The translations under genes and the position numbers were made by a program. 64,000 bases of DNA from Zymoseptoria tritici IPO323 (lineage: Eukaryota > Ascomycota > Dothideomycetes > Mycosphaerellales > Mycosphaerellaceae). Of this stretch, positions 4,102 through 11,231 are shown piece by piece. The notes below the pieces were generated by a model. That model searched no databases. It was not told where the DNA came from and saw nothing but the letters and a program-made list of their open reading frames with translations. Location of the stretch: NCBI RefSeq assembly GCF_000219625.1, contig NC_018213.1, forward strand, positions 1,110,055 to 1,174,054, written 5' to 3'. Each line of letters opens with the position of its first letter. Position 1 is the stretch's first letter.

Positions 4102-4576
4102 GTGGCTTGTATTGAGCTGGACGACCTGAGATGTGTGGCTCCTGAAATAATGATAATCGTTGATCTTTCGGGGTGTATGTGTTCCAGCGGCGGAAGTAAG
4201 GTATCCTAGCAGAGTTGGCTTTGTCTTCCTCCTGGCTGGAAGACATCGCGACGATTCACGCACGACATTTGATGGGCAGTTTCGATAACCAATTCACCGA
4301 GGTGTCCAGCCTCATGCCGCATTCGGGAATACAAATACTCCGACGGGTTCAGGCGTACCCTGAGATGGAGACGAGAAAGCGTTGCATCCGATGCGGGAGG
4401 GAAGACATGGCGCAGCGAAGATGAGAATAGAGGAGATGATGTCTTTCGACTGGAGCTCATGGGAGATGATGTCTTTCGACTGGGGCTCACGAGAGATAAT
4501 GTCTTTCACCTCTCACATTTTCTCTCCGAGTGGAGATTGGTTCGGGCAAAACGGGAGCTAGATATGGTGCTTGTTT
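4102..4576. other. intergenic between kinase gene and transposon
   Basis: This holds the kinase 3' region and a short tandem repeat at its right end. No gene is supported. Confidence 0.5.
4433..4510. repeat. 30-bp tandem repeat, about 2.6 copies
   Basis: Units begin at 4433, 4463 and 4493 with GAGATGATGTCTTTCGACTG. The first two copies differ at only a few positions; the third is partial and diverged. It lies 66 bp outside the left transposon end. Confidence 0.85.
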
Positions 4577-4623
4577 GATCGTGTCCTATATCGCAGTTTA
4601 GGTCACTACCTCAATTCTCATTT
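4577..4623 (+). repeat. left terminal inverted repeat
   Basis: It starts GATCGTGTCCTATAT and pairs with the reverse complement of 9953-9999. The only mismatch is at 4592. Unlike the interior it still contains CA dinucleotides. Confidence 0.95.
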
Positions 4624-4914
4624 CTTACAATTACAACACTACTACTACTATTGTCGCCAATTGCTTATATTGTTACCTATATAGTAGCAGAGTTACTCTA
4701 TCGACAATATTAACAATTACATATAAGTGCGCGCGCTAATACGCCGTTTAGTTAGATAAGTGTCATTTTCTTCGACTCTTAAACCTCTTATTAACACTAC
4801 TACTTCTACTACTCTACCGCGCGCGCTCGCAGCTCGCTCGTTACATAATACATACTACTCGTAATATCGCACCCTCGCGCGCACGTAAAAATAGCTAGTT
4901 AGATACTACTTAAT

Positions 4915-5737
4915 ATAGAACTTGGTAAGGCTCGCGACCCTAATCGCCTACGCGGACTCTCTCTCTCCGACGACAACGACGATAAGCTAGCGACTATATC
5001 TACTGCAGCTATTACTCCTGCTCCTTAGCTACCTGCCGACCTTCTCGTCTACGATAAGCCTACTACGGCTACCTCTAAAGACTTCTAGTATATCTCCGAC
5101 CTTTAATAGAACGATACCCTTATTAGAGTATAGAGCAGCAATAAAAACACTAAGAAGAGCGGACGTTAGATGCTTATAAAATACGATTATGTACGTAGAG
5201 TTATAGAGACGGACAAAGGTAATATAGCTCGCATAGCTCTTAGTAAGGCTCGTAGGCTAATAATAAATAATAGGCATTCCGGCGGTTACTAAGTACAGCT
5301 AGTACGAGGATCGTAGACTCGACTGCAAGACTTCTAAGACTCTCGCTACCTATACTTACTACTACTATAAGGGCAAGCCTCCGTGTTTTGCTAGAGAGTA
5401 GGTAAAGATTAAGGAGGAGCCGGTAGAAAAGAAGTCTGTATTAAAGGAGGCTGTTAGCAGCATGCGAGGTAAGATAAATAAGGCGCAGGACAAGATCGCT
5501 ACGTTAGAGTCGGAGGTGTCGGATTTAAAGCGTAAGATTAGCGGTTTAAAGTATAAGATTAGCGGTTTAAAGTGTATAAAAGGTTAGCTAAAGGAGGAGC
5601 TAATTAAGGAGATTATAGACGAGGTTAATAACGTACAGAGCAAGTTAAAGGCTACTATTACTAAGATTAAGCAGTCGGTGTTATAGTATTAGCGTGCTGT
5701 TAACGAGAAGTTTAGTAGACTAGGCGTAATAGATTAA
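4915..5737 (+). pseudogene. transposon relic frame A: coiled-coil protein
   Basis: A coding-like frame runs from an ATA at 4915 (a possible mutated ATG) to TAA 5735-5737, with one frame change near 5285-5300 that could be an intron or indel. The first half holds the stretch NDDKLATISTAAITPAP. The second half is Lys/Glu-rich with heptad-like repeats (KISGLKYKISGLK, then KEELIKEIIDEVNNV), which suggests a coiled coil. In-frame stops at 5300, 5399, 5585, 5684 and 5690 are all TAG, as expected from CAG or TGG after RIP. Function is unknown; a structural or accessory transposon protein is an inference from its position. Confidence 0.6.
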
Positions 5738-5924
5738 TAGATAGATCGATTTAGCCTACGAGCTCTCCGCGAGCCTTGCGAGCCTGCACGTTAATACCCA
5801 AATAAATGCGTTAGTTGCTGTATATCTCCTTAAATCCCTCGTTTTCACGCTTACGAGCCAGCCGTTTTAGCCTGCGTACACGCCGCGAGCCGTTTTTAAG
5901 GAAGAGAATTAAGGTGTTAAGAGA

Positions 5925-5956
5925 TTAAGATATTAAGATATTAAGATATTAAGATA
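5925..5956. repeat. 8-bp tandem repeat TTAAGATA, 4 copies
   Basis: Four perfect units lie between relic frames A and B, in sequence that is non-coding on either strand. Confidence 0.9.
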
Positions 5957-6055
5957 TACGTTTATCGTTCCTTCTAGCTACGAGCTAGTCTATTTAGTCC
6001 GCGAGCACGCAACGAGCGAGTCGTCGGTAGCGTATATTTATTAGATTCGTGTATA

Positions 6056-7840
6056 TTAGTCCTTCTAGTTAGCCCTGCCCTTCTCGGTAAGCTTAATAGT
6101 CCGCTCGCTCCGTCTAGTGCTAACAGCTACTAGCTCGTTAACCTTCTTCTTCTTCTTCTTTATCTTCTGCTGCTAAACAACCGGCTCGGCGACCTCCTCT
6201 AGCATCTCTAAACCCCCTTAACTAGCAGCAGTAGTAGCGGTAGTAGTAGCAGCAGTAGTAGCAGCAGTAGTAGTAGCAGTAGTAGTAGTAGTAGTAGCAG
6301 TAGTAGTAGTAGTAGTAGTAGTAGCACTGCTAGGCTCCTTCGCCTTCGACTTTAACTAAGGCGTTGTTATTATTGTTGTCGCTAACGAAGAGGGTATCGT
6401 CGAGTCCGAAGGGATCGCTGGCGCTAGCGCACTAGCTGCTGCGGAGGTAATCGTCGAAGATGCACTATTCTCCTTAGCTCGGTTCGCGGTAGCTTCCTTA
6501 GCCCTTACTATATTGCCTAAGCTGTCCGTATTAGGGTCGAGCAGAATGCAGTCGTTAAGCTAGCTTACCGGCGATAATTAGAGGTCGCGGCTAGCAGGGC
6601 GTTTAGAGCTAGAGCGTTGCTAAGGCAGAGGGCTAGAGCGCTTGTCCTATAAGGAGCTAAGGGCAGCGCGAGCTATACGAGAACAGCTCGCGAGCCCTGT
6701 AGACTAATCTACGAGCGCCTTACTATTGCTGCCGGACGGGCCTACGTCTATTACAAGGTAGCGTACTTCCGGTGCGAGCTAGCTTACGAGTAGGTAACTC
6801 TAGCCTACGAGGACTTTCTTGCCGTCGATGCTAGTATAGCTGTTAGTCTATATAAACGGATAGTGAATAACGCCGTCCTTGTCCTTAAATACACGCCCGT
6901 TAGGGTATAGGACAGTGCTATCGGTCTGCACGTCGTAGCTAATTACATACTAGAATATAGGCTCGCCGTCCTTCCTTACGGAGCGTTTTAAGTCTATATA
7001 TACCTAGCTATCGTCGTAATTCTTCTAGCCGCTAGCGTAGATAACGTAAGTAATCCGAATAGTCGCCTACGGAGCCCTACCGGTTGTCGATAGATTAAAC
7101 AGCTGTATTATCCTAATCGTAGTATTCGTAGCAGCTACGTTATTAGCGCCGAGCTTAATAGGCTAATTCCTACTATACTCCCTTGTTAAATAGATATCGT
7201 AATAGGGCTTCTTATCTCGCCGCTGCTTCGCAGCTACGCTCTCGTTTAGCAGATACTCTAAGAAGAGCCTTCTACAGTTATGTTTCGCAGCGGCCTTAAG
7301 AATAGTATCTATCTCGGCAATAACGCCCTAAGCTTATTATAAGATCTTATTACGTTTGTCGGAGTAGACCGGCGTCGCATTATCGTTAGCGTCCTTACTA
7401 TCTACAGGCTCCGGATCTGTAAGGGTAACAGTATAAAGGAAGCACTTAGCAGTAAATAGCAGCAGTAGCTTGTCCTTATTGTCCTAGGCACCGCCCCTCG
7501 CACTCTTATTATTAGCTAACAGCTCCCTTAAACACTTGGCCTTCTTAGCCTCCTTTAATAAGTTAGTAGCAGCGTTAGGTAACTTACGGGCCTTCGTCTT
7601 AGCCGCCTTCTTTATCTTAGTGTTCGCACGGCTCTGCGGAATGTATATGCCTTCGCGAGTACCGGAGCTAGGAGGGGTAGGCTAGCGCTCGTAGTCGCTC
7701 GCAGGGTTGCCGTCGTTACTCGCTAGAGCTACTCGCGAGGGTAGAGGGCAGCCGCAGAAGCTACAGTTTTTATTACTAAGATTAGCATAAGAGGTGTAGG
7801 GTAGTACCGCAGGATTGCGGCAGAACTAAAAGGTAGCTAT
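6056..7840 (-). pseudogene. transposon relic frame B: unrecognised 595-codon protein
   Basis: Read on the minus strand from 7840, one frame continues to TAA at 6058-6056 without any frameshift. It is cut by about two dozen stops, every one TAG or TAA. The first codon is ATA, which could be a RIP-mutated ATG. Visible pieces are a Cys-rich start (FCRNPAVLPY, then NCSFCGCPL), a Lys-rich segment (NLLKEAKKAKC), a central part with many Tyr and Asp residues (YDVQTDSTVLYPNGR), a poly-Thr tract encoded by the 6224-6326 triplet repeat, and a basic end (KIKKKKKKVNELV). I do not recognise the family. The frame may continue past 6056 for a few tens of codons. It could be a second transposition protein or cargo. 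Confidence 0.65.
6224..6326. repeat. AGC/AGT trinucleotide microsatellite
   Basis: About 34 triplets of AGC or AGT lie inside relic frame B, where on the minus strand they read as ACT/GCT (Thr/Ala). Mixed AGC and AGT units show the run is imperfect. Confidence 0.9.
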
Positions 7841-8329
7841 AAGATAGCTGTATATAAGGAACGGAGGTAAGCAGAAGGAAGAGGAAGGCTAGGAGGGCAG
7901 GAGGGCATAGCCTAGTATATTGTTAATCGAATACAAAGCTATTAGCGCGGAAGAAGTCCCTTATATAGTTACGCGGCTATAACTTAGCGCCCTTCGGAGG
8001 GGTCTAAAACTCCGCGAGCTCGTTGCCGGCCGTAAGGTAACGAGCGGCAGTATCGCGGAGGTAAAGATATACATCTATATAGATCTTATCCTTATTAGCG
8101 TCTAGCTCGCGACTATCGAGCGTCGCCGGAAAGCTACTAGCTACTAGCATCTCGGTAGCCTATAGCAGAGTCGGTAGAGGAAGGTATATAAGAAGATCTG
8201 TAAATAGTTAGCTCGTTACGGCACGTAAAACGCTCGCAACGCTAGCAGGCTAGTAGCAAGCTCTCGATCCCTATACCGCTCCTTAACCCTAGTCGTCTCG
8301 CAACCGCTCGCAGCCGCTCGCAGCTGCTC
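7841..8329. other. transposon interior between the two minus-strand relic frames
   Basis: RIP-type sequence without a frame I can follow. It probably holds the upstream region of relic frame B and the 3' end of the integrase relic. Confidence 0.5.
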
Positions 8330-8334
8330 GTGCG
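8296..8334. repeat. 10-bp CGCTCGCAGC-type tandem repeat
   Basis: About four diverged units lie at the 3' end of the integrase relic. The same CTCGCA/ACGAGC word recurs many times elsewhere in the element. Confidence 0.7.
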
Positions 8335-9831
8335 TAGGGGATACTAACCGAATTAAGCATACTAATCCGCTATCCGCTAGATACGCGGATACTCTATATT
8401 AAGGTAGATTCCGCGATCCTCTACGCTATTAGGAGGATAGTCGTAGTTGTAAGCAGGAATACTAGGCAAATGCCTATTAACTTTAGGCTACTTTCGAATG
8501 CCGTAGTTATTATAGCTATTAATAAATAGCTCGACCGTAAACTAGAGGATTAGAACGAAGACAGCAAGGAACGCTATACGGTTAGCCCTGCTATCCTCGC
8601 TATAGAGGCCTTTATCGCGAAGCCGGTAGAAGAAATTACGCTATCGATTCTATCCTACAGCTATATTAAGACCCTAGAAGCGCTCTATTGTTTAATTACC
8701 TTTGCTCGTTATATACTAGAAGCTATCGCGGAACTTAATGTTCTTACCCTCCTAAAGTTTATAGCAGAAGAGGTATATATTAGCTATTAATAGAGTCTCT
8801 ACGCCGTAATCCGCTCGTATAATCTATAGAAGTTAGCAGAGCTGCGAGCATAGGGACGTACAGTAACGAGCCTACCTTTAGCGTAAAGCTAAGTTCTCGG
8901 ACTATATCTAAATACTACTTAGAAACCGAGAAGACCGTCTTAGCTATAGTGCCTACGTAAATCTATATAATCTTCTGTATATATATATCGATATAGGCGT
9001 AGAAGCAGATACCGAAGATCTCGAACTTATAGTAGGCATCTACCGACTATATATAATTAGGACCCTTAGCCTTTAGACGACCGCGCTTAACACCCTTACG
9101 ACTACCCTTCCGGCGGCGAGTATTATAGCCTACAGGATTAAGGGAATACGCGATCTTAGCTATGCAATCCCTACGAGCAAACGAGCGTTAGCGTACGAGC
9201 TAGGCGAAGGAGTTTACGAGTAAGGGAAGCAGCGTAAATTGCAGTTTACGAGCGGACGAATCTAGCCTACGAGCGGACGAATCCAGCCTACGAGCGGACG
9301 CATCCTGCTTACGAGCGTACTTACGAGCGTGTATACAGACCTTCTAATAATGTTATATTCCTTCCGTAGGTGCCTTACTAATCGTTTGTATCTATAGTTA
9401 TCTAACGTACTACCTACAATCGTCCCCTCTAATACCCTCTGTATAACCTTATCGTGTTTAGGCTAGTTATCTCTTAGGATCCTTCGATACAAGCCTAGCT
9501 TCTTCCGGATATCTACTAATTACTATAGGCTAATCTCGAAGCCGTCCTTCTTTAGGCATCTTAACAGTAACTCGTCTGTTATGTCCTACTGCTAGAAGAG
9601 CTCCTTAATCCTTATATATAGTAGTGCCTAATAGTCCTTATCTTAATAGATCCTCGGATACGTAGATAGCTACTATCGAGCTAGTATCCGTCTAAACGTT
9701 CGAGGCTTAATAGCTACTTGCTACTCTTCCCTTAGCTATTAAACGACGTCGTCGTAGGTCTATTCGGAGACCCTAAGAAGGAGCTCGATCTCGGTTCGAA
9801 GGTAGTCGATATTAAGGGCGGCGCGTAGTAT
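8330..9831 (-). pseudogene. transposon relic frame C: DDE integrase-type transposase with two introns
   Basis: The minus-strand frame begins at an ATA (9831-9829, possible former ATG). Exon 1 (9831-9341) is Arg/Leu-rich. Intron A (9340-9171, 170 bp) has a CTAAC branch and TAG end. Exon 2 (9170-8876) carries GPNYI, a TAG, then SVDAYYKFEIFG with the first catalytic Asp. Intron B (8875-8824, 52 bp) has a GCTAAC branch. Exon 3 starts IIRADYGVET with the second Asp, then TIERF with the Glu, and ends in a YNYDYPPNSVED segment. Removing both introns joins the integrase core in one frame. Stops seen in the exons are TAG or TAA. The fold is that of the retroviral-type integrase core found in fungal integrase-domain proteins; this is recognised from memory. 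The exact 3' end is uncertain. Confidence 0.75.
9244..9322. repeat. 21-bp minisatellite CTACGAGCGGACGAATCCAGC
   Basis: About 3.5 copies lie within intron A of the integrase relic. They explain why that intron is three times longer than the other introns in this window. Confidence 0.85.
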
Positions 9832-9952
9832 AGCGAGAGGGTAGTAAGGGTGTTAAAAAGAAGAAGAAGAACGATGTTACGAGCAAGAGAGATAGACGTT
9901 GCGAGCGTTTAGCGCTTACTAAGCGCAATATCGATAAAACGAGGTTTTGAGA

Positions 9953-9999
9953 AAATGAGAATTGAGGTAGTGACCTAAACTGCCATATAGGACACGATC
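9953..9999 (-). repeat. right terminal inverted repeat
   Basis: This is the inverted copy of the left end, mismatched only at 9984. The bases that follow (CACAGC) do not continue the repeat, so this marks the element border. Confidence 0.95.
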
Positions 10000-10295
10000 C
10001 ACAGCCCACCTCGGCGCTGAACGTCGTTCACATTCACTCCATCATCAGATCTCTCTCGTCATCCATTTGCCCGCACTGCGAGCATTAGAGCCATATGCCG
10101 ATGATCAACAGGTAGGCGAAGTAAACCATCGAGTGGTCAAAAGCAAGCCTTCCAACAGGCAAAGCTCTCTTCATTGGACGTCAACCTCACCATCCTCGAC
10201 CCCACTTCCACTACTGACCTTCAGACATCGTCCACGTCCCGTAAGGTCCTCATCGCATCTCTTCTTCTTCGCCGTCACCCTCTCGAGCTCCCGAC
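10000..10295. other. leader of the dehydrogenase gene
   Basis: Sequence between the transposon border and ATG 10296, with pyrimidine-rich stretches near the start codon. The transposon ends 296 bp before the start codon, so it lies in or next to this promoter. Confidence 0.5.
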
Positions 10296-11231
10296 ATGTC
10301 TTCTCCTCCTCAACCCACCAAAATCGCCCTTATCGGCGCCGGCACAATCGGCCTTTCCTTCGCCGCCCTTCACCTCTCCAAAAACCCCACCTGCACCATC
10401 ACAATCTACGACACCCGTCCCGATCTCTCCTCATATGTCGCGCAACATCTCCCCAGCTACCTCGTAGACGTCGATGATCACGAGTCATGTACACGGCGAC
10501 TCACGTTCGCGACATCGTTAGAAGAAGCTGTCAGAGGTGCGAATATCGTTCAAGAGCAAGGACCCGAGAACTCCGCGTGGAAAGTACAGTTATGGCCGCA
10601 AGTGGAGAAGTTCGCAAGGAAAGAGGCGTTGTTGTGGAGCAGTACGAGTGGCATCCCGGCGAGCGAGCAGAGTGCGGGGATGGAGGATAAGACGAGACTG
10701 GTGGTTTGTCATCCGTATAATCCGCCGCATATCATGCCGTTGTTGGAAGTTGTGCGGTCGCCGAGCACGTCGGATACAGTGGTTGAGCAAACGCTGGCAT
10801 ACTGGCGGAGACTGGGCCGAGCGCCGGTAGTGGTGAGGAAAGAATGCGTCGGCTTCGTGGCGAATCGACTCGCGTTCGCACTGGTCCGGGAGGCGTGTAG
10901 TCTGGTCGCACAAGGGGTGGTGGGGGTGGAGGAGTGCGATGAGATTGTTAGGAATTCGATGGGCCCGAGGTGGGCAGTTGCTGGGCCGTTCAAGGCGTAT
11001 CATGCCGGTGGAGGGGAGAAGGGGTTGAGGGGTTTTGTGGAGAAGGAGGGAATTGGAGGGACGGTGGAGAAGTGTTGGAGGAAGAGCGAGGAGGATGCGA
11101 GGGAGGGGAATGTGTGGGTTGGGGAGGAGTGGCAGGAGGAGGTTTGTAGGCTGGCGGAGGAGGCGTATGGGGTTGTGGATACGAGGGAGAGGGATGAGAA
11201 GACGAGGAGGGTTTTGGATGCTGTGAGGTGA
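10296..11231 (+). CDS. 3-hydroxyacyl-CoA dehydrogenase-like NAD-dependent enzyme
   Basis: Single exon, 311 residues. The N-terminal Rossmann fold shows ALIGAGTIG (residues 11-19) and an acidic residue after the second strand (IYDTRPD), as expected for NAD(H). VCHPYNPPHIMPLLEVV holds the catalytic His-Pro-x-Asn motif, and CVGFVANRLAFALVREACSLV is the start of the C-terminal helical domain. Length fits the short, single-function members such as lambda-crystallin/L-gulonate 3-dehydrogenase or L-carnitine dehydrogenase rather than a multifunctional beta-oxidation protein. The exact substrate cannot be told from sequence. No targeting peptide is evident. The 3' third becomes strongly G-rich. Confidence 0.88.
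   Translation: MSSPPQPTKIALIGAGTIGLSFAALHLSKNPTCTITIYDTRPDLSSYVAQHLPSYLVDVDDHESCTRRLTFATSLEEAVRGANIVQEQGPENSAWKVQLWPQVEKFARKEALLWSSTSGIPASEQSAGMEDKTRLVVCHPYNPPHIMPLLEVVRSPSTSDTVVEQTLAYWRRLGRAPVVVRKECVGFVANRLAFALVREACSLVAQGVVGVEECDEIVRNSMGPRWAVAGPFKAYHAGGGEKGLRGFVEKEGIGGTVEKCWRKSEEDAREGNVWVGEEWQEEVCRLAEEAYGVVDTRERDEKTRRVLDAVR

Follow-up and report, generated by a model that had tools for sequence, protein, structure and literature searches.

Complete families of the IS3EU transposons always have TA..TA ends and usually generate 6-bp target duplications (PMC10045372), and IS3EU elements with extra genes are described from rust fungi (PMC12730594). The Zymoseptoria element Styx is 7927 bp long and carries four genes, among them one for a DUF3577 protein, a GATA gene and a CCHC gene, along with 6-bp duplications and an IS3EU-like integrase; two of its genes have putative DNA-binding motifs, and the element has been tied to chromosome rearrangements and is represented by one degenerate copy in strain IPO323 (PMC10853768). 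Ginger1 elements encode a Gypsy-type integrase with an H2C2 finger and have TGTNR ends (PMC2836005), and both Ginger1 and most Ginger2 elements produce 4-bp duplications (PMC2836005, PMC10045372). IS481EU elements have a single gene, TNT..AYA ends and duplications of about 4, 15 or 25 bp, and among bacterial IS3 elements the duplication length varies, with 4 bp for the IS407 subgroup (PMC10045372). The comparisons below are made with these published descriptions. The subject of this study is a transposon with terminal inverted repeats (TIRs) at positions 4577-9999 of a 64,000-bp stretch of the Zymoseptoria tritici IPO323 genome (contig NC_018213.1, C6:1110055-1174054), referred to as the window, which was compared to the whole genome of the same strain (39,686,251 bases in 21 contigs).

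The window element is a complete TIR transposon of about 5.4 kb with three genes, and it is heavily altered by repeat-induced point mutation (RIP), a mutation defence of the fungus. Its inverted ends of 47 nt, at 4577-4623 (left, beginning with GATCGTG) and 9953-9999 (right), match at 46 of 47 positions (98% complementary). The composite RIP index is +1.59 inside the element, where TA/AT is 2.02, as compared to flank values of -0.84 and -0.77. The window copy and L002, the sister copy closest to it, show 286 differences, of which 285 are transitions and one is a transversion. An earlier note on this stretch had described a complete element killed by RIP, with three long decayed frames, one for a DDE integrase and two for other proteins, and all of this is borne out. 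The note is corrected in that the integrase gene contains introns, with four exons recognised, in that the element belongs to a multicopy family, and in that the window copy lacks a duplication of its own and has exchanged flanks with another copy. We consider it highly probable that the element is a cut-and-paste transposon, now dead, with an IS3-related transposase, consisting of a helix-turn-helix (HTH) part and a DDE part, and two partner genes, that these genes form a kept trio, and that the copy was struck by RIP and took part in the flip of a 65-kb segment. The ends, the 4-bp duplication left at insertion, the conserved trio and the IS3-like transposase are established from sequence and are taken up in turn below.

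A DNA search of the genome yielded 80 matching pieces that represent at least 27 loci of the same family (family 1), with composite RIP indices from 0.46 to 2.21; L028, which is the same locus as L002, is not counted. All three genes are covered to at least 80% in 19 of the 27 loci. Among the other eight (L010, L013, L014, L015, L024, L025, L026 and L027), at least L010, L014 and L026 are parts of copies split by inserted DNA, the other end of which was read separately. Nested insertions have been described for the Z. tritici genome (PMC4522978), and insertions seem to have split copies on C7 and C15, so that the three frames might be thought to be unrelated host genes, or genes of nested elements, caught between the ends by chance. 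Their joint presence in 19 loci, and in the same order in a second, diverged family (family 2, below), makes this exceedingly improbable and agrees with the co-occurrence of the three genes that the earlier note had proposed.

The ends of family-1 copies begin with GATC or GATG and those of family 2 with GATA or GATG; because all three starts occur, GAT belongs to the element end. The concern that the palindromic GATC would hide a 4-bp target duplication is thereby resolved, as GATC is part of the ends and the duplication consists of the 4 bp outside them. Both ends were read in 23 family-1 copies, and an exact 4-bp duplication was identified in 18 of them (L004, L005, L006, L007, L009, L010, L011, L012, L014, L016, L017, L018, L019, L020, L022, L023, L026 and the C20 copy L077/L078), which by chance would have a probability of 1.5e-39 (binomial, 1/256 per copy). 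In L003 and the C15 copy L067/L068, three of the four bases are duplicated and the difference is of the RIP type. The duplicated words follow no fixed motif. Copies in which at most one end was readable (L008, L013, L015, L024, L025, L027, L070 and L071) are left out of this count. When the empty sites were joined and read through, no frame was decisive either way. We also observed that L003 (C14:521260) and L021 (C14:534356), which run in opposite directions, have an identical 30 bp of left flank, and that L021 carries two different end types, an arrangement that points to a local duplication or rearrangement.

Gene C, on the reverse strand, encodes the putative transposase and was delineated with P0001, an uninterrupted predicted protein of 511 amino acids from Z. 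tritici strain 1A5 that is homologous to gene C over its length. Exon 1 (9337-9831), located by tblastn of P0001 and by its domains, encodes the N-terminal HTH (Clr5-like) part and was matched from residue 7, with the start extrapolated. The start of the DDE core with the first catalytic D is encoded by exon 2 (8880-9172; inner limit estimated), the remaining core with the second D and the E by exon 3 (8380-8823), and the C-terminal part of the integrase by exon 4 (7935-8198). Intron 1 contains 21-bp tandem repeats (9242-9320), the length of which varies among copies. In tblastn, the window exons are 41-49% identical to P0001, and the nine family-1 copies searched 38-61%. The D, D and E residues align between families 1 and 2, with one of them lost in some RIPped copies, and the intron positions in the protein are identical in both families.

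P0001 scored above the cut-offs of rva_4 (8.5e-18) and Clr5 (23 bits, cut-off 22.3) and matched HTH_21 below its cut-off; the best NCBIfam match was an IS3 transposase (1e-5, 25 bits; model cut-off 160). The window copy's own frame matched rva_4 with 1.3e-4, below the cut-off, and a read-through family-1 copy with 2.5e-12. Across the genome, rva_4 was matched at E 0.01 or better in 21 places, and the family-1 copies at C1:4068218, C2:962874, C20:179342 and C6:1673636 scored above the cut-off, as did C15:412340 together with its in-frame neighbours. A search of PDB gave no match for P0001 and one chance-level match (E 0.42) for the integrase profile, and a scan of viral contigs with P0001 gave four pattern matches and no relative. 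Gene C thus encodes an IS3-like HTH plus DDE integrase; it is a relative of bacterial IS3 transposases and probably also of those of eukaryotic IS3EU.

Gene A is located on the forward strand, with its N-terminal part at about 4920-5270, where the exons were not delimited, and its exon 2 at 5273-5745, which encodes a cysteine cluster with Zn2Cys6 spacing followed by a coiled coil and is RIPped. The Zn2Cys6 spacing is C-x2-C-x6-C-x5-12-C-x2-C-x6-8-C. A strict match was present in three of 21 scanned copies of family 1 as well as in the copy of family 2, and in none of 200 letter shuffles of one copy. In the window, the cluster (5294-5386) has decayed, with tyrosine codons at four of the six cysteine positions. 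Of 24 loci checked, 23 cover the cluster, and in each of these all six positions are cysteine or tyrosine codons; a tyrosine codon at such a position is the RIP product of an original cysteine codon. Exon 2 of family-2 gene A was matched in seven of nine family-1 copies at 26-29% identity, with one of the seven reaching just E 0.002; the window copy, the cysteines of which are largely lost, gave no match to family-2 gene A. Coiled-coil matches in the window frame were weak and all below the cut-off. The spaced cysteines and the coiled coil suggest that the product of gene A is probably a dimeric DNA-binding protein.

Gene B (6020-7825, reverse strand) was located by tblastn of P0002, also from strain 1A5, and of family-2 gene B, its lower limit being approximate. 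It encodes a cysteine-containing N-terminus, a low-complexity middle and a basic C-terminal tail, with a simple repeat for an Ala/Thr-rich stretch at 6211-6342 that varies in length among copies. The window gene is 25% identical to P0002 (2.6e-12) and the family-1 copies 23-26%. Each of the nine family-1 copies searched also matched family-2 gene B over its N-terminal half. A PDB search with gene B gave no match. Its product probably works together with the transposase or regulates it.

The reading frames have been kept in all three genes. In comparisons of the window copy to 25 other copies, with gaps of up to 60 nt considered and shared gaps counted once per copy, the gap lengths were multiples of three in 8/8 cases in the integrase exons, 18/19 in gene A exon 2 and 159/183 in gene B, and in 111/449 cases at other positions. 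Longer gaps, which were left out, numbered 18 in gene B, three in gene A, one in gene C and seven elsewhere.

The same trio, in the same gene order, is present in an element on C16 (541700-547129, 5430 bp) that is not RIPped, with a composite index of -0.05, and is flanked by the duplication CCAC. Protein identity to family 1 is low. The integrase of this element is 92% identical to P0001 in alignment, and P0001 was used in its place for the comparisons with family 1. Family 2, to which the C16 element belongs, has several copies, and all seven with two ends read have exact 4-bp duplications. In both families, genes C and B are arranged head to tail and gene A points towards them. Because the gene order and orientation are common to two diverged families, the trio is an old cassette that has been kept. 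The C16 copy and the uninterrupted P0001 are little-mutated relatives of the kind that the earlier note had considered possible.

Four more distant relatives were tried, of which three have GAT starts and 4-bp duplications (CCGG, TCGC and TGAG, read by eye); for the fourth, on C20, the ends could not be traced. The diverged relatives of the family-2 element, from among which these four were taken, lie in the same genome at C19:189127-194052, C1:3302471-3307402, C1:5764888-5769779, C3:1146013-1150946, C20:225921-230581, C5:63891-66382, C2:669641-674598 and other places. Protein searches recovered relatives only from Z. tritici strain 1A5 (P0001 and P0002); since these searches need shared exact words and, beyond the first, scored only the best 7994 and 7998 candidates, they do not show absence elsewhere. 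A 412-bp element on C2 (L064, C2:2446891-2447302) has the same ends, no genes and a duplication of its own (TGCG), and looks like an ordinary non-autonomous derivative. The earlier note had named ends without the inner genes, or frames that never co-occur, as signs against a three-gene element; this small element is literally an instance of the former, and the latter does not apply to the frames. Another, smaller element with inverted repeats seems to have inserted into L064 at a TA.

No description of a three-gene element with GAT..ATC ends and 4-bp duplications was found in the literature searched. The window element resembles IS3EU, including GingerRoot, in the IS3-like DDE transposase, the absence of an HHCC zinc finger and the existence of multi-gene members in fungi, but the ends and duplications described for IS3EU are TA..TA and usually 6 bp, as compared to GAT..ATC and 4 bp here. 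With Styx it shares the species, the TIRs, an integrase-type DDE transposase, the presence of further genes and, with the probable inversion treated below, an association with chromosome rearrangements, whereas Styx as described is 7.9 kb long with four genes and 6-bp duplications, and its one degenerate copy in IPO323 contrasts with the 27 or more loci of family 1. A search for DUF3577, encoded by the fourth gene of Styx, gave no match in the genome, which by itself decides nothing because the control genomes gave no match either. We judge the chances to be about even that the element is a plain IS3EU member, a cousin of Styx within the same superfamily, in which the ends and the duplication length have changed. 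The IS3-like gene C, the multi-gene IS3EU elements of fungi in general (PMC12730594) and of this species in particular (Styx, PMC10853768), and the variable duplication length in bacterial IS3, including 4 bp in IS407 (PMC10045372), are all in line with this, while the recurrence of GAT..ATC ends with 4-bp duplications in two families and three further relatives is at odds with the TA..TA ends and usually 6-bp duplications of IS3EU as described.

The IS407 subgroup likewise has an IS3 DDE transposase and 4-bp duplications, but is bacterial and has the TG..CA ends described for IS3 (PMC10045372). IS481EU elements differ by their single gene and TNT..AYA ends, as compared to three genes and GAT..ATC. 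Ginger1 and Ginger2 are similar in their integrase-like DDE transposase and in their mostly 4-bp duplications (PMC2836005, PMC10045372), on the basis of which a Ginger-type element could be proposed. However, neither the H2C2 finger nor the TGTNR ends of Ginger1 were found in the window element or P0001, the duplications are not confined to the CCGG/CCGT preferred by Ginger1, and the profile search with P0001 listed neither a Gypsy-type rve nor an H2C2 match at a limit of E 10, with HMMER dropping most matches above about 0.1; we regard this assignment as very unlikely. It is possible, though doubtful, that the elements represent a separate superfamily of eukaryotic transposons, of IS3-like origin apart from IS3EU, which would be characterized by GAT..ATC ends, 4-bp duplications and a transposition machinery of three proteins encoded by the element, with the Zn2Cys6 coiled-coil protein as an obligate partner that binds DNA for the integrase. 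On present evidence, we place them as a variant of the IS3EU-like kind rather than as a separate kind, because IS3EU is the closest described group but two of its hallmarks fail. The statement in the earlier note that the element fits no fungal DNA transposon family it could name therefore does not hold in full, since an IS3EU home is known from Styx and the rust elements, but it keeps some force because the 4-bp duplication and the GAT..ATC ends depart from the published description of IS3EU.

The window copy is flanked by GTTT on the left (4573-4576), the duplicate of which is found at the sister copy L002 and not at its own right end, and by CACA on the right (10000-10003), also duplicated at L002. 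L002 is located 65 kb away in the opposite direction and has the reciprocal flanks, and each swapped pair agrees over four bases and no more (GTTT and TGTG). As reciprocal flanks are the trace of crossing over between two inverted copies, recombination of the window copy with its inverted sister has probably flipped the 65 kb between them. The segment would extend over C6:1120054-1185222, that is from 10000 to 64000 in the window and past its end. The swapped flanks are known from one assembly alone, and separate deletions or an assembly error at the repeats would account for them with no inversion; against this stands the match over exactly 4 bp in both pairs, as predicted for a crossover of inverted copies, and we find such an explanation quite unlikely. 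Inversions between IPO323 and 3D7 have been studied (PMC5082898), and the 65-kb case is neither confirmed nor excluded in the available sections of that study. A 3-hydroxyacyl-CoA dehydrogenase-like frame (10305-11231; 3HCDH_N, 6e-37) begins about 300 bp inside the segment. If the inversion is real, the former upstream DNA of this frame should adjoin the far side of the sister copy.

Taken together, we propose that the transposase encoded by gene C would most likely bind the ends of about 47 bp and cut at the GAT..ATC termini, and that the ends would then be joined to target DNA with a 4-bp stagger, the repair of which would give the 4-bp duplication. The product of gene A probably binds DNA and that of gene B may act as a partner or regulator of the transposase. 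Later, RIP inactivated the family-1 copies, and a crossover of the window copy with L002 would have produced the 65-kb flip.

A number of observations weigh against this interpretation, the whole of which is drawn from sequence. Three of the 23 two-ended copies, namely the window copy (L001), L002 and the chimeric L021, are without a duplication of their own, and for another four (L010, L014, L026 and one C15 copy) the two ends were assigned to each other across intervening insertions. The family-1 ends were mostly sought with a GAT pattern; ends read without it, those of family 2 and of the further relatives included, agree with GAT, except for one RIP-altered end (the left end of L014, read by eye). 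For none of the copies in the genome could all three genes be shown intact, and in gene B the gap length departs from a multiple of three in 24 of 183 cases. A search of nine family-1 copies gave no match to the C-terminal half of C16 gene B, although P0002 did align, and none to the first, N-terminal exon of gene A from C16, and the family-2 exon of gene A gave no Pfam Zn_clus match at a limit of E 10. The structure models have a mean predicted local distance difference test (pLDDT) score of 39.5 for the integrase, with roughly the first 116 residues mostly above 50, and of 32.7 for gene B; because confidence is very low for the modelled gene B protein and integrase core alike, the role assigned to gene B is a guess.

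The curated transposable element library of Z. tritici holds 331 consensus sequences, 105 of which are unclassified (PMC10652580), and the family may well already be included there as an unclassified entry or under another name. The diagnostic set of GAT..ATC ends, 4-bp duplications, the C-B-A trio and an IS3-like integrase could name some of these unclassified entries and may perhaps be useful in other fungi too. The swapped duplications document, at the resolution of single bases, how a pair of transposons has likely inverted part of a chromosome. The elements are a diversified lineage of three-gene IS3-like transposons with ends and a duplication length of their own, and the conservation of the trio raises a question not posed by transposons with one gene, namely what role two partner proteins may have for an IS3-like integrase in a eukaryote.

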